Below, piece after piece: positions 2,778 through 57,143 of a DNA stretch of 64,000 nt. The DNA lies in contig NZ_JANTHX010000004.1 of the NCBI RefSeq assembly GCF_024752305.1, forward strand, positions 124,001-188,000. Reading direction: 5' to 3'. How positions within the stretch are numbered: the stretch's first letter is position 1; each line of letters begins with the position of its first letter. The notes under the pieces were generated by a model. That model did no database searches. It saw nothing but the letters and a program-made list of their open reading frames with translations, and was not told the DNA's origin. The DNA comes from Protaetiibacter mangrovi (lineage in GTDB: Bacteria > Actinomycetota > Actinomycetes > Actinomycetales > Microbacteriaceae). Position numbers and translations under genes: made by a program.

Positions 2778-3266
2778 CTAGTGCGAGGGCACGTAGGCGG
2801 CGACGCCCGCCTCGACGATCGCCTCCGCCTCCGCGGCGTCGCCCCAGCCCTCGGTCTTGACCCACTTGCCGGGCTCGAGGTCCTTGTAGTGCTCGAAGAA
2901 GTGCTCGATCTCCTTGCGGGTGTACTCCGGGATGTCGTCGACGTCCTGGATGTGCGCCCAGCGCGGGTCCTTCGCGGGCACCGCGATGACCTTGGCGTCG
3001 GAGCCGCCGTCGTCGGTCATCTTGAACACGCCGACGGGGCGGACCTTCACGCCGACGCCGGGGAACAGCGGGTACTCGAGCAGCACGAGCACGTCGACCG
3101 GGTCGCCGTCGAGGCCGAGGGTGTTCTCGATGTAGCCGTAGTCGGTGGGGTAGACGAAGCCCGTGAAGAGCACGCGGTCGAGGAAGACCCGACCGGTCTC
3201 GTGGTCGACCTCGTACTTGTTGCGGCTCCCCTTGGGGATCTCGATGACGGCGGCGTAGTCGGCCAT
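2778..3266 (-). CDS. ppa: Inorganic pyrophosphatase (family I)
   Basis: A cytoplasmic, magnesium-dependent hydrolase of pyrophosphate that pulls biosynthetic reactions such as PRPP transfer and tRNA charging forward. The 162-residue length is typical of bacterial family I enzymes. Signature elements visible are the early [11 protein letters not shown] stretch, the DGDPVDVLV motif that holds three catalytic aspartates, and the later [13 protein letters not shown] segment. The ATG at 3266 has an AGGAGA Shine-Dalgarno sequence a few bases upstream on the minus strand. It is transcribed divergently from tilS with a 46-bp gap, and its 3' end faces the hydrolase pair across palindromic element A. 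Confidence 0.96.
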
Positions 3267-3300
3267 GGATGTCTCCTGGTGTCGTGTGGTGCGGCGCCCA

Positions 3301-3306
3301 TAACGT
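3301..3306 (+). promoter_or_regulatory. Leaderless -10 element of tilS
   Basis: TAACGT ends exactly 6 nt before the ATG at 3313, placing the transcription start on or next to the start codon. No Shine-Dalgarno sequence is present. Confidence 0.55.
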
Positions 3307-3312
3307 TAGTCG

Positions 3313-4401
3313 ATGGCTGCCGACCGACCTCGCCCCCGCCTGACCCCCGCCCGGGCCGACATCCGCCGCGCGGTGCGCGACGCGCTCGCCGACCTCGCCC
3401 CCGACATCCGTGTCGAAAATGCAGGAGATTCTGCGGAGGATGCCGCGAACTCCGGGGCGGTCGAGGCGACCCGTGCAGAATCTCCTGCATTTCTGGACCG
3501 ACCGCTGGTGCTCGTCGCGCTGTCGGGCGGCGCGGACTCGCTCGCGCTCGCCGCGGCGACCGCGTTCGAGGCGCCGCGGGCCGGCATCCGGGCGGGTGCG
3601 GTGGTCGTCGACCACGGCCTGCAGCCCGGATCGGATGCGGTGGCCATCCGGGCGGCGGAGCAGGCGCGCGAGCTGGGGCTGGAGCCGGTGGTCGCGGTGA
3701 CCGTCGAGGTGGACGGCCCGGGCGGACCGGAGGCGGCGGCCCGCGATGCGCGGTACGCGGCGCTCGCCGAGGTGGCGCGCGAGAACGACGCGGCGGCCGT
3801 ACTGCTCGCCCACACCCTCGACGACCAGGCCGAGACGGTGCTGCTGGGCCTCGCCCGCGGCAGCGGCACGGCGAGCCTGCAGGGTATGGACGCGGTGTCG
3901 GGGATCCTGCGGCGGCCGCTGCTCGGGATCCGTCGGGAGACGACGCGGCGGGCCTGCCTCGACGAGGGGCTCGAACCCTGGGACGACCCGCACAACGCCG
4001 ACCCCGCGTACGCCCGGGTGCGGGTGCGCGAGCGGGTGCTGCCGGTGCTCGAGGCGGAGCTCGGACCCGGCGTCGCCGAGGCGCTCGCGCGCACGGCGGA
4101 GCTCGTGCGCGAGGACGCGGAAGCCTTCCAGCGGCAGATCGACGAGCTCATCGAGGACATCTGCGAGCCGGCGGAGGCGGGGATCGCCGTGTCGGCGACC
4201 GCGCTCGCGGCGAACCCGACGGCGCTGCGCAACCGCGTCATCCGCTTCGTGGTGCTCGCCGAGTTCGGGGTCTCGCTCACCCGGGCGCACACCCTCGAGG
4301 TCGCGAGGCTCGTCACCGACTGGCACGGGCAGGGGTCGATCGACCTGCCCGGCCTGACCGCACGCCGCGAGGGCCGCCTCATCGTCTTCACGGCGTCATA
4401 G
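3313..4401 (+). CDS. tilS: tRNA(Ile)-lysidine synthase with an in-frame palindromic insertion
   Basis: Ligates lysine to C34 of the CAU-anticodon isoleucine tRNA using ATP, so that it reads AUA. The PP-loop motif SGGADS is at residues 71-76, followed by the usual N-type ATPase fold (HTLDDQAETVLLGLARGSG) and the conserved LLGIRRETTRRAC segment. At 362 residues it is somewhat long for a short actinobacterial TilS. The extra length lies before the PP loop: codons 35-60 are encoded by a perfect inverted repeat (3417-3492) with no counterpart in the family as I know it. The palindrome adds about 26-30 hydrophilic residues without a stop. The start is decided by the leaderless promoter at 3301-3306. 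The next gene, hpt, follows by 9 bp, a common actinobacterial order. Confidence 0.93.
   Translation: MAADRPRPRLTPARADIRRAVRDALADLAPDIRVENAGDSAEDAANSGAVEATRAESPAFLDRPLVLVALSGGADSLALAAATAFEAPRAGIRAGAVVVDHGLQPGSDAVAIRAAEQARELGLEPVVAVTVEVDGPGGPEAAARDARYAALAEVARENDAAAVLLAHTLDDQAETVLLGLARGSGTASLQGMDAVSGILRRPLLGIRRETTRRACLDEGLEPWDDPHNADPAYARVRVRERVLPVLEAELGPGVAEALARTAELVREDAEAFQRQIDELIEDICEPAEAGIAVSATALAANPTALRNRVIRFVVLAEFGVSLTRAHTLEVARLVTDWHGQGSIDLPGLTARREGRLIVFTAS
3417..3492. repeat. Palindromic element B, copy 1, inside the tilS coding sequence
   Basis: AAATGCAGGAGATTCTGC at 3417-3434 is matched perfectly in inverted orientation at 3475-3492, with a 40-nt loop between. The same core arm, AAATGCAGGAG, forms a second inverted repeat at 57062-57143. 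Here the element is read through in frame as tilS residues 35-60. Confidence 0.85.
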
Positions 4402-4404
4402 GCT
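4399..4404 (+). promoter_or_regulatory. Leaderless -10 element of hpt overlapping the tilS stop codon
   Basis: TAGGCT includes the TAG stop codon of tilS and ends 6 nt before the hpt ATG at 4411, giving hpt its own leaderless promoter inside the operon. Confidence 0.5.
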
Positions 4405-4410
4405 GGGCGC

Positions 4411-4962
4411 ATGGAGCCGGCCGACATCCAGGGTGACCTGTCCGAGGTGCTGCTCAGCGAGGCCGAGATCCATGCCCGGATCGCCGAGCTGTGCCGCGAG
4501 ATCGAGCGCGACTACGAGGGCCGCGACCTGCTGCTCGTCGGCGTGCTGCGCGGGGCCGTCATGGTGATGGCCGACGTCTCGCGCGAGCTGCGCCGACACA
4601 TCGAGATGGACTGGATGGCGGTGAGCTCCTACGGGGCCGGCACCCAGTCGTCGGGCGTCGTGCGCATCCTGAAGGACCTCGACTCGGATCTCACCGGGCG
4701 CGACGTGCTGATCATCGAGGACATCATCGACTCGGGTCTGACCCTGTCGTGGCTGCGCGAGAACCTCTCGAGCCGCGGTGCGGCCACGGTGGAGATCTGC
4801 GCGCTGCTGCGCAAGCCGGCGGCGGCCAAGGTCGAGGTCGACGTGCGCTACGTGGGCTTCGACATCCCGAACGACTTCGTCGTGGGCTACGGGCTCGACT
4901 ACGCCGAGAAGTACCGCAACCTCCGCGCGGTGGGCGTGCTCGCCCCGCACGTGTACAGCTGA
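4411..4962 (+). CDS. hpt: Hypoxanthine (guanine) phosphoribosyltransferase
   Basis: Purine salvage enzyme that transfers the phosphoribosyl group of PRPP to hypoxanthine or guanine. The 183-residue protein has the PRPP-binding motif VLIIEDIIDSGLT at about residues 99-111 and the characteristic VGVLRGAVMVMADVSREL and MDWMAVSSYG segments of the type I phosphoribosyltransferase fold. Its position between tilS and ftsH is the same as in many Firmicutes and Actinobacteria. It may be transcribed from the leaderless promoter at 4399-4404 as well as by read-through from tilS. Confidence 0.96.
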   Translation: MEPADIQGDLSEVLLSEAEIHARIAELCREIERDYEGRDLLLVGVLRGAVMVMADVSRELRRHIEMDWMAVSSYGAGTQSSGVVRILKDLDSDLTGRDVLIIEDIIDSGLTLSWLRENLSSRGAATVEICALLRKPAAAKVEVDVRYVGFDIPNDFVVGYGLDYAEKYRNLRAVGVLAPHVYS

Positions 4963-5007
4963 CTCAGCCTCGGGCGAACACGCAGGAAGGGCCGAGCGGA
5001 CGGGCGG

Positions 5008-5013
5008 TACCCT
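5008..5013 (+). promoter_or_regulatory. Candidate -10 element of ftsH with a leader hairpin
   Basis: TACCCT would start transcription near 5020 and give a leader of about 40 nt. The ribosome-binding run AGAGGAAGGA (about 5028-5037) is far from the ATG at 5061. A small hairpin (GGGC-TGAC-GCCC, about 5042-5053) lies between them and could bring the two into register. Confidence 0.4.
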
Positions 5014-5060
5014 GAGGGTCACGTCTCAGAGGAAGGACGTGGGCTGACGCCCGCTCTCAC

Positions 5061-7079
5061 ATGGACTTCAAGCGCATCTTCCGCGGCCCGCTGATCTACA
5101 TCATCCTGGGTGTGGTCATCCTGATCGTCGGGTTCAACCTGATCACGGCGGCGGCCGGCTTCAAGCAGGTCACCACCCAGCAGGGGCTCGAGCTGCTCGG
5201 CGGGTCGACCGTCGAGTCGGTCAAGATCGTCGACGGCGAGCAGCGCGTCGACCTCACGCTCTCGAAGGCGTACTCGAGCGACGACGCCGACTACGGCACG
5301 CAGGTGCAGTTCTACTACGTGCAGCCGCGCGGCGACGAGGTGATCCAGGCGATCACCGACTCGAAGGCGAAGTTCGACGACGAGGTGCCCCAGACCAACT
5401 GGTTCACGAGCCTGCTCGGCATCCTGATCCCCTTCCTCCTCATCGGCGTGATCTTCTGGTTCCTGTTCAGCTCGATGCAGGGCGGTGGCAACCGCGTCAT
5501 GCAGTTCGGCAAGTCGCGGGCCAAGCTCGTGTCGAAGGAGAGCCCGAAGGTCACCTTCTCGGATGTCGCGGGCGCCGACGAGGCGGTCGAGGAGCTGCAG
5601 GAGATCAAGGACTTCCTCAAGGACCCGGCCAAGTTCCAGGCGGTCGGGGCCCGCATCCCGAAGGGCGTGCTGCTGTACGGCCCTCCCGGCACCGGCAAGA
5701 CCCTGCTCGCCCGCGCGGTCGCGGGTGAGGCGGGCGTGCCCTTCTACTCGATCTCCGGATCGGACTTCGTCGAGATGTTCGTGGGCGTCGGCGCGAGCCG
5801 TGTGCGCGACCTGTTCGAGCAGGCGAAGCAGAACGCGCCGGCGATCATCTTCGTCGACGAGATCGACGCCGTCGGCCGGCACCGCGGAGCCGGGCTCGGC
5901 GGCGGCCACGACGAGCGCGAGCAGACGCTCAACCAGCTGCTGGTGGAGATGGACGGCTTCGACCCGAAGACCAACGTCATCCTGATCGCCGCCACCAACC
6001 GACCCGACATCCTCGACCCGGCGCTGCTGCGCCCGGGCCGCTTCGACCGTCAGGTGGGCGTCGACGCGCCCGACCTCGAGGGCCGCAAGAAGATCCTCTC
6101 GGTGCACGCCAAGGGCAAGCCGATGTCGAAGAACGTCGACCTCGAGGTGCTCGCGCGCAAGACGCCCGGCTTCACGGGTGCCGACCTCGCCAACGTGCTC
6201 AACGAGGCCGCCCTGCTGACCGCGCGCAGCAACGCGCAGCTCATCGACAACCGCGCCCTCGACGAGGCCGTCGACCGGGTCATGGCCGGTCCGCAGCGCC
6301 GCACCCGCGTGATGAAGGACAAGGAGAAGCTCATCACGGCCTACCACGAGGGCGGTCACGCGCTCGCGGCGGCGGCGATGAACCACACCGACCCCGTCAC
6401 GAAGGTCACCATCCTGCCGCGCGGCCGCGCCCTCGGCTACACGATGGTGCTGCCGCTGGAGGACAAGTACTCGGTCACCCGCAACGAGCTGCTCGACCAG
6501 CTCACCTACGCGATGGGCGGACGCGTCGCGGAGGAGATCGTGTTCCACGACCCGACCACCGGTGCGTCGAACGACATCGAGAAGGCGACCGCGACCGCGC
6601 GCAAGATGGTCACCGAGTACGGCATGAGCGCCACGATCGGCGCCGTGAAGCTCGGGCAGTCGCAGGGCGAGGTGTTCCTCGGACGCGACATGGGTCACCA
6701 GCGCGACTACTCCGAGGAGATCGCCGAGAAGGTCGACGTCGAGGTGCGCGCGCTCATCGAGCAGGCGCACGACGAGGCCTATCGGGTGCTCTCGGACAAC
6801 CGCGACATCCTCGACGCGCTCGCCCGCGAGCTCATCGAGAAGGAGACCCTCGACCACAACCAGCTCGCCGAGATCTTCGCCGACGTGCGCAAGCTCCCGG
6901 AGCGCCCGCAGTGGCTCTCGAGCGAGCACCGTCCCATCAGCGACCTGCCCCCGATCCAGATCGCCGCGTCGGCGCCCGTCGACCCGGGCGCGGTCGACGC
7001 CGGGGTCGACTCGGAGCCCACGGCGAAGCCCAAGCGCACCCCGCGCCCGCGGCAGACGCCCGGCATCGCCCCGGCGTAG
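5061..7079 (+). CDS. ftsH: ATP-dependent zinc metalloprotease FtsH
   Basis: Membrane-anchored AAA+ protease that extracts and degrades misfolded or short-lived membrane and cytosolic proteins. The 672-residue protein has two N-terminal membrane segments (about residues 8-30 and 113-137) around an extracytoplasmic domain. These are followed by an AAA+ module with Walker A GPPGTGKT (207-214), Walker [12 protein letters not shown] and an SRH region ([21 protein letters not shown]), then the M41 protease domain with zinc motif HEGGH at 429-433. All catalytic elements are present. The C-terminal tail is Pro/Lys-rich, which is common in actinobacterial FtsH. The folate genes begin 7 bp downstream, so the whole block is probably one transcript. 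Confidence 0.97.
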
Positions 7080-26520: not shown

Positions 26521-26641
26521 CAAATCAAGGACTCGAGCAACCCGAATCAAGGAGTTGCTGCTCGGAAACGGCCCCGCCTGCCCCGCCCGCAACATCCGTC
26601 ACACCGGGTCCTTGATTTGGGTTGCTCGACTCCTTGATTCG
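26521..26641. repeat. Long inverted repeat, 34-bp arms
   Basis: The left arm (26521-26554) starts CAAATCAAGGACTCGAGCAA and the right arm (26608-26641) is its reverse complement at 30 of 34 positions, ending TCGACTCCTTGATTCG. A 53-nt GC-rich loop separates them. Each arm itself carries two TCAAGGA or TCCTTGA units, so the whole is a palindrome of smaller repeats. It lies in the 250-bp gap between a small membrane gene and the pirin gene; no ORF in it is supported. Confidence 0.85.
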
Positions 26642-57061: not shown

Positions 57062-57143
57062 CAGAAATGCAGGAGTTTTCCGACGGCTGCCGCCGGCGGG
57101 CCGGTGCTGCCGCCCCCGGGCGCGGATTCCTCCTGCATTTCTG
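57062..57143. repeat. Palindromic element B, copy 2, intergenic
   Basis: CAGAAATGCAGGAG (57062-57075) pairs perfectly with CTCCTGCATTTCTG (57130-57143); the 54-nt interior is GC-rich and partly self-complementary. The arm matches the element inside tilS. It lies between the methyltransferase start and the end of the MMPL gene. A purine-rich tract follows (57144-57178), which is a pyrimidine tract downstream of the MMPL stop on the minus strand. Confidence 0.82.

Follow-up and report, generated by a model that had tools for sequence, protein, structure and literature searches.

A palindrome inside tilS as a probable target site of an AbiEi-like DUF559 protein in Homoserinibacter

The gene for tRNA-Ile lysidine synthetase (tilS) in a genome of the genus Homoserinibacter (G000; assembly of 2.98 Mb in 16 contigs) contains a perfect palindrome within its reading frame, which raises the question of how such an element came to lie there and what maintains it. 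The preliminary description likened it to Rickettsia palindromic elements, which are in-frame palindromic inserts kept in proteins and whose copies are recognisably alike in sequence throughout, the interior included. The window, that is, the whole 64-kb stretch analysed here (contig C10:124001-188000), holds the following features, numbered from its first position.

3313..4401, + strand: tilS, host gene of the element; an open reading frame (ORF) with the Pfam domains ATP_bind_3 and TilS, found in relatives by tblastn
3417..3492, no strand: bipartite palindromic element of 76 bp in tilS, shared in position by genomes G000, G001, G002, G003 and G006
3417..3434, + strand: left arm AAATGCAGGAGATTCTGC, 18 bp, with the family-wide conserved part AAATGCAGGAG at 3417-3427
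3435..3474, no strand: variable core (40-nt loop) between the 18-bp arms, conserved in length and weakly conserved in sequence
3475..3492, - strand: right arm, 18 bp, exact reverse complement of the left, with the family-wide conserved part at 3482-3492
26523..26639, no strand: element of a second family (AATCAAGGA...TCCTTGATT), 117 bp, equivalent to G000:C10:150523-150639, with arms doubled about 22 bp apart
57065..57140, no strand: second copy of the tilS element's family, intergenic, 76 bp between AAATGCAGGAG ends

A family of fixed-length palindromes with variable cores

The palindrome at 3417-3492 is as first described, with two 18-bp arms that are exact reverse complements around a 40-nt loop, and it is read in frame as residues 35-60 of the ORF at 3313-4401(+), which encodes the Pfam PP-loop and TilS domains. 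The arm core also recurs as an intergenic palindrome at 57065-57140; the span of 57062-57143 given earlier includes the flanking CAG and CTG into which that palindrome extends. The 11-mer arm core has four matches in the window at up to one mismatch against 0.17 expected, and four or more were found in none of 100 shuffled sequences. An Rfam search of the window at gathering thresholds returned no matches.

Genome-wide, a search for inverted pairs with exact 9-bp ends, allowing 48-78 bp, found 23 pairs in G000, all with 73-75 bp between AATGCAGGA ends, and none for a reversed control pattern, so that the arms do recur, as the preliminary description had anticipated. Allowing one mismatch in the partner arm, 44 of the 47 exact AAATGCAGGAG matches in G000 sit in a pair of 75-77 bp, and the remaining three are outer arms of two nested places. 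Nested places at G000:C4:83649-83767 and C10:193761-193913 were considered as insertions of one element into another, a reading that was dropped since the sequence holds no clean outer element. Exact elements number 23, 37, 23, 36, 43, 4, 14, 0 and 2 in the nine genomes of the genus, and at least one copy is present in each of 32 of 398 Microbacteriaceae genomes, belonging to 16 of 85 genera.

A set of 111 copies was drawn from six genomes with up to three arm mismatches (taking 15 of 36 copies in G003, 9 of 14 in G006 and one of two in G008). Although lengths of 70-82 bp were allowed, 110 of the 111 measure 75-77 bp, which shows that the ends are paired at a constrained spacing. The conserved arm AAATGCAGGAG extends to TGTCGAAAATGCAGGAG in G001 and to CAGAAATGCAGGAG in most other genomes. 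The cores are variable, but a weak consensus, including a central CCCG...CGGG, stands out against shuffled controls. Base pairing between the two halves of the core is not favoured as the main constraint: only a few bases inward from the arms, symmetric pairing drops towards the background level, and the core folding z is weak (mean -0.52, sem 0.11, over the 111 elements; 32% below -1). The match of the element's length to that of a tRNA (76-77 nt) was dropped by eye as a coincidence.

Among 110 elements compared within five genomes (26+37+23+15+9), median core similarity was 0.44-0.47 versus 0.33-0.36 after shuffling. Similarity exceeded 0.8 in two local pairs only (0.95 at locus L177 and 0.84 at L174) and was at most 0.71 between dispersed copies; recent copying of whole elements is therefore not seen among these 110.

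Copies occur in both coding and intergenic sequence. By a rough home-made gene caller, 75 of the 111 have no ORF overlap, lying between tandem (38), convergent (28) or divergent (9) genes; 13 partly overlap an ORF and 23 lie inside one, many of the latter looking like wrong-strand ORFs. Only the copies in tilS, tlyA and a YeiH-like gene, 11 of the 111, were treated as genic. Bidirectional terminators are not favoured as an explanation, as convergent pairs make up only 28 of the 111 by the same rough caller and the fixed core length would stay unexplained.

Sites in tilS, tlyA and orthologous places

TilS and TlyA were compared in the nine congeners after location by protein, which makes the comparison free of arm-selection bias. 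In five of the nine (G000, G001, G002, G003 and G006), tilS carries the 76-bp element, read in one common frame; the linker is short and free of the element in G005, G007 and G008, in agreement with the earlier statement that this region is only a short linker in other TilS proteins. In the remaining congener, G004, the linker (L229) holds a different palindrome at the same place, GTCGCAGAAGCAGGCT and its complement, 74 bp long, as if several element families had repeatedly landed in the tilS linker. Across other Microbacteriaceae, the linker has a median of 12 residues (range 9-92) in the 46 of 78 loci caught by the search pattern, and the NAG...SPAF peptide occurs in none of those 46. The extra TilS residues are not present without the palindrome in most relatives, nor are the arms absent elsewhere in the genome, the two outcomes that would have spoken against an inserted repeat.

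All seven A/T-ending arm codons (AAT GCA GGA and TCT CCT GCA TTT) are kept in the five element-bearing species. Outside the arms, none of 13 A/T-ending codons in tilS is kept (294 aligned codons, GC3 0.944). This contrast implies that the DNA is constrained, and not the peptide alone. Half-decayed arms were not found in tilS of the nine congeners.

The second coding site differs in origin. It lies in a gene which we take to be tlyA and whose protein has S4 and FtsJ domains (Pfam). The distance between DVGHGQL and DLSF is 53 residues in all nine congeners, six of which carry the element (exact in G001, G002, G003, G004 and G006, with one mismatch in G000); in G008 changes at 4 of 22 arm bases leave the arms degenerate, and the sequence of G005 and G007 is native. 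As the length is equal in all congeners, no DNA was inserted when the element arose here. In the gene for a YeiH-like membrane protein (Pfam PF03601), the protein segment read from the core is conserved among three species.

These sites bear directly on the likeness to Rickettsia elements. One part of that reading stood: the tilS palindrome is in frame and is kept as extra peptide, in five species. The kinship did not. Dispersed copies have no common interior, 75 of 111 lie outside ORFs, and the family is tied to a DUF559 nuclease gene described below; further, insertion followed by retention is not sufficient for every coding copy, given that the tlyA element sits on native coding sequence and adds no residues. 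A selfish protein insert of the Rickettsia kind is therefore a scarcely credible explanation of the family as a whole.

Most copies of G000 have counterparts in other species: 23 of 26 are positionally matched, on one or both sides, to element loci of another congener. In 56 intergenic ortholog pairs, 1213 of 1232 arm positions are identical, a value biased upward because copies in relatives were located by exact ends, so that decayed copies are missed; the length difference is 0-1 in 54 of the 56. Cores of equal length, in contrast, agree at 503 of 1136 positions over 21 pairs, as against 0.381 for unrelated cores. The pair count, in which pairs are non-independent, left out genic loci and the multi-element loci L148 and L177; other doublet loci remain in it, where uncertainty over the matching copy lowers core identity. 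By this comparison, arms and spacing persist in place and cores diverge. Several nodes of the genus tree are weak (0.46-0.65), so that gain and loss of the tilS, tlyA and gene-unit copies are unpolarised, and the flanks of the elements are too diverged to define target-site duplications.

A nuclease gene between two elements

In G000, G001 and G002, two complete copies about 1.05 kb apart enclose the same gene of about 290 codons. This DUF559 nuclease gene is the only one found repeatedly between two elements, and it is bracketed in six of the nine genus genomes and in other genera. A fourth element pair, spanning 2 kb (L174), encloses an aldose-epimerase-type gene instead. At that locus in G001 (3001-5126), two near-identical inverted elements with matching flanks surround the aldose-epimerase gene and a second similar reading frame, an arrangement that may be an inverted duplication of local origin.

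In G000, G001 and G002 the element-gene-element unit occupies corresponding positions. Its left neighbour, earlier read as tsf in error, is presumably citrate synthase, judged by its motifs. The gene starts about 0.4 kb from the same left flank in G003, G004 and G005, with elements beside it. In G006, 44 bp separate the matched left flank from the right one, and these hold neither element nor gene; G007 and G008 have the left flank, with no match to the right flank within the 1.5 kb examined. Presence of the gene and number of elements do not run strictly in parallel. G006 has 14 exact elements and no nuclease gene at E 1e-30, G005 has the gene and only 4 exact elements, and G008 has an unbracketed nuclease homolog (L254) together with degenerate tlyA arms. 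The last case fits a dependence of the arms on the nuclease; the intact arms of G006, where no gene was found, speak against it unless gene loss was recent.

The three bracketed proteins of G000, G001 and G002 all match Pfam DUF559 (E 3e-10 to 1e-11), a family that Pfam still lists as of unknown function. Below the Pfam cut-off, MTES_1575 matches all three proteins and AbiEi_4 two of the three, and PADLOC assigns AbiEi to the nuclease protein P0003 at E 2.7e-8. An AlphaFold model built from 32 sequences (pLDDT 94.4, pTM 0.87) was compared by Foldseek with known structures. The matches were the catalytic domain of I-Bth0305I (3r3p, E 1.3e-4, TM by target 0.78), the AbiEi antitoxin (6y8q, E 2.3e-4 over 204 columns) and, more weakly, Vsr (1cw0, E 8.3e-3); a sequence profile matched 3hrl at 5.6e-11 and 3r3p at 8.7e-6. 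Near-invariant in 68 nuclease proteins are E201 (.99), D227 (.97), E236 (.99), D238 (.94) and H243 (.96), and likewise Q218 and D252, so the EDxHD/Vsr-like catalytic fold and the conserved acidic and histidine residues are both present. As modelled, the protein joins an AbiEi-like domain for DNA binding to a DUF559/Vsr-like domain predicted to act as a nuclease. A partner AbiEii-type toxin gene was not found between the bracketing elements of L148, L181 and L200, which hold one plausible gene each.

The association extends beyond the genus. The nuclease profile (A1) matches 245 of 398 Microbacteriaceae genomes at E 1e-30 or better. Nine of the 11 best-scoring genomes outside the genus carry AAATGCAGGA elements, and in the other two (G367 and G390) a variant arm, AAATGAAGGA, adjoins the gene. 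At up to one mismatch per arm, elements of the AAATGCAGGA/AAATGAAGGA type stand on both sides of the gene in 16 of the best 17 loci (L237-L253) and on one side in L243. The gene lies directly beside an element in 17 of the 20 family genomes with at least four elements (G000-G005, G017, G037, G045, G056, G083, G114, G138, G143, G280, G333 and G343); none was found beside an element in G006, G279 and G285, which also have at least four each.

A de novo test was used that assumes no arm sequence. It calls a gene bracketed when an inverted repeat lies in each 600-bp flank and the two repeats share an 8-mer arm and differ in length by at most 2 bp. Two of 70 loci, at contig ends, were dropped. Of the remaining 68 in Microbacteriaceae, 47 are bracketed, seven of these on a single shared 8-mer, and without the AAATGCAGGA clade the figure is 33 of 50. 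When left and right flanks were mismatched, 50 of 2450 combinations passed for those 50 loci and 236 of 4556 for all 68, a count that contains real sharing; of 571 control windows, drawn from 80 tilS regions, none passed. Among the 21 genes left unbracketed by this strict test, L282 and L293 are bracketed at one mismatch per arm. The arms are gene-specific, differing between nucleases and often ending in (C)AGGA, and their similarity follows that of the proteins (47 loci, Mantel rho 0.334, with 0 of 999 permutations as high).

Such bracketing by gene-specific arms of equal length, in 47 of 68 loci against 0 of 571 in the control, is difficult to reconcile with passive MITE- or REP-like repeats moved by some other transposase, for which the DUF559 link would be hitch-hiking. 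The dispersal of the palindromes mostly outside ORFs, their inverted ends and the insertion at tilS are what passive repeats would give. However, the dispersed copies lack common interiors, and the Y1 transposase, the sole transposase family searched, was not found in the nine genus genomes. Its profile (PF01797), positive in 5 of 14 control genomes, was found in 0 of 9 genus genomes and in three of 398 family genomes (G019, G237 and G268), all without elements; a RAYT/Y1 transposase as driver was rejected on its absence from the nine. Passive repeats are thus a very improbable account.

G000 holds a second nuclease gene (C16:454161-454988, L286), outside the window and bracketed by AATCAAGGA palindromes, and the 26523-26639 element is cognate to it by position. 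The dispersed family that this arrangement predicts was found in the same genome, with 22 matches per strand at 18 places, two of which are the brackets, and none in the control. Its outer arms are 117-118 bp apart, and some matches overlap because the arms are doubled. One genome can harbour two or more families, each placed around a nuclease gene of its own.

In a sample of Actinomycetota, a nuclease match at E 1e-40 was obtained in 9 of 396 genomes. Eight of 24 loci in the phylum set are bracketed and 16 are not; outside the family the count is one of four. The bracketed locus L327 (G682, another family of the class), in which palindromes with GATCGTACTGACCCGTAT arms, 73 bp long, flank the nuclease gene, means that the arrangement occurs at least once beyond Microbacteriaceae.

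Proposed working and relation to known systems

Taken together, the tilS palindrome is probably a dispersed target site of a protein with an AbiEi-type winged helix and a Vsr/EDxHD (DUF559) nuclease domain, site and protein forming a selfish, REPIN/RAYT-like partnership. This proposal builds on features read from sequence comparison: a family of fixed length, a bracketed nuclease gene, arms specific to that gene, cores that diverge between arms kept in sequence and spacing, an insert in tilS and a tlyA site without one. AbiEi binds inverted repeats in its own promoter (PMC7319586), and the EDxHD enzyme I-Bth0305I binds a target of nearly 60 bp as a dimer (PMC3943268). The latter length is close to the spacing of about 65 bp between arm centres here. 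By analogy, two subunits of a dimer would each hold one arm through the AbiEi-type domain and place the catalytic domains over the core. Nuclease activity, through break repair or conversion, may have seeded arm pairs at the correct spacing and may keep restoring them. The partnership would be selfish in the manner of REPIN/RAYT and assembled from unrelated parts, and the tilS copy would be an old insertion surviving as a tolerated loop of about 26 residues.

The principal alternative is a network of binding sites useful to the host, in which a domesticated regulator or a chromosome or defence factor binds the dyads, host selection keeps them and the nuclease domain is secondary. Sites that keep their place across species as cores diverge (the 23 of 26 matched elements of G000), a tlyA site without insertion and a gene at matching places in six congeners are what such a network would leave, and the binding of AbiEi proteins to inverted repeats in their own promoter (PMC7319586) suits it as well. 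However, near-invariant nuclease residues, at least two families in one genome, each around its own nuclease gene, and copy numbers from 0 to 43 within one genus are not easily accommodated, and we consider a host network rather unlikely. It should be noted that selfish drive, host-selected maintenance of sites, or both would each be compatible with the data.

A stronger form of the selfish-partnership reading, which we offer tentatively as possible though doubtful, is that AbiEi-fused EDxHD nucleases are site-writing selfish genes that imprint their own two-arm, fixed-spacing targets and police the arms as the core drifts. Site writing would have proceeded by insertion of a whole element at tilS and, at tlyA and perhaps in the YeiH-like gene, by conversion of two short tracts on either side of about 54 bp of native sequence, with no DNA added. 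If true, this would explain what the AbiEi-DUF559 fusion proteins that are widespread in actinobacteria do, and such genome-wide site drive would form a class distinct from transposition.

The closest known system is REPIN/RAYT. REPINs occur in many dispersed copies with conserved inverted ends and a less conserved spacer whose length matters; the RAYT nuclease gene is single-copy with repeats in its flanks, and repeat classes are each tied to their own protein (PMC3116915, PMC8049555). The likeness lies in dispersed inverted ends at constrained spacing, a flanked nuclease gene and several repeat classes with their own proteins. The differences are that no Y1/HUH transposase was found in the genus genomes, that the nuclease joins AbiEi and Vsr/EDxHD parts, that whole two-arm elements stand on both sides of its gene, and that the tlyA site formed without insertion. 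The homing endonuclease I-Bth0305I has one allelic target site, whereas the present protein would have tens of dispersed targets and has an AbiEi-like DNA-binding part. The two resemble each other in catalytic fold and, under the proposed model, in a very long, dimer-bound target (PMC3943268). The AbiEi antitoxin of type IV toxin-antitoxin systems is similar to the N-terminal and middle parts of the nuclease protein, which differs in having a C-terminal nuclease and no toxin gene between the bracketing elements. Rickettsia palindromic elements share the in-frame palindromic insert kept in a protein, here TilS; here, however, interiors are not shared, most copies lie outside ORFs and the family is nuclease-linked.

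Because the system would work in a REPIN/RAYT-like way but no RAYT was found in the genus genomes, no part was seen to be shared with it, and the element is not of the Rickettsia kind, we rate it as new in kind, with strong convergence on REPINs. In open-access journal papers, by titles and abstract openings, no link of DUF559 proteins to palindromic repeats appeared among the matches listed. Within the same scope, we found no work on palindromic or repeat elements of Microbacteriaceae or on DUF559 with AbiEi, and the arm sequence gave unrelated papers among the matches listed. The linkage of nuclease genes to their own dispersed palindrome families offers predicted DNA targets for these proteins and points to a convergent counterpart of REPIN/RAYT built from a homing-endonuclease-type domain. 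The tlyA case further prompts one to ask if genes can have such sites written into them.

Some arrangements of the elements deserve mention in their own right. Doublets or triplets about 30-90 bp apart occur at G002 1273195-1273537, G002 2053640-2053867, G006 1279454-1279683 and G000:C10 52131-52356. In several families (L286, L298, L260, and L004 at about 1480-1600) the arms are often doubled in tandem, 21-22 bp or roughly two helical turns apart. Finally, inner motifs recur in cores across families and genera, GGCGTGTCG/CGACACGCC and GTGACGGATG, with examples in G001, G143, L285 and L304 and in G083, G280, G343 and the second family of G000, and could point to a second protein or host factor.
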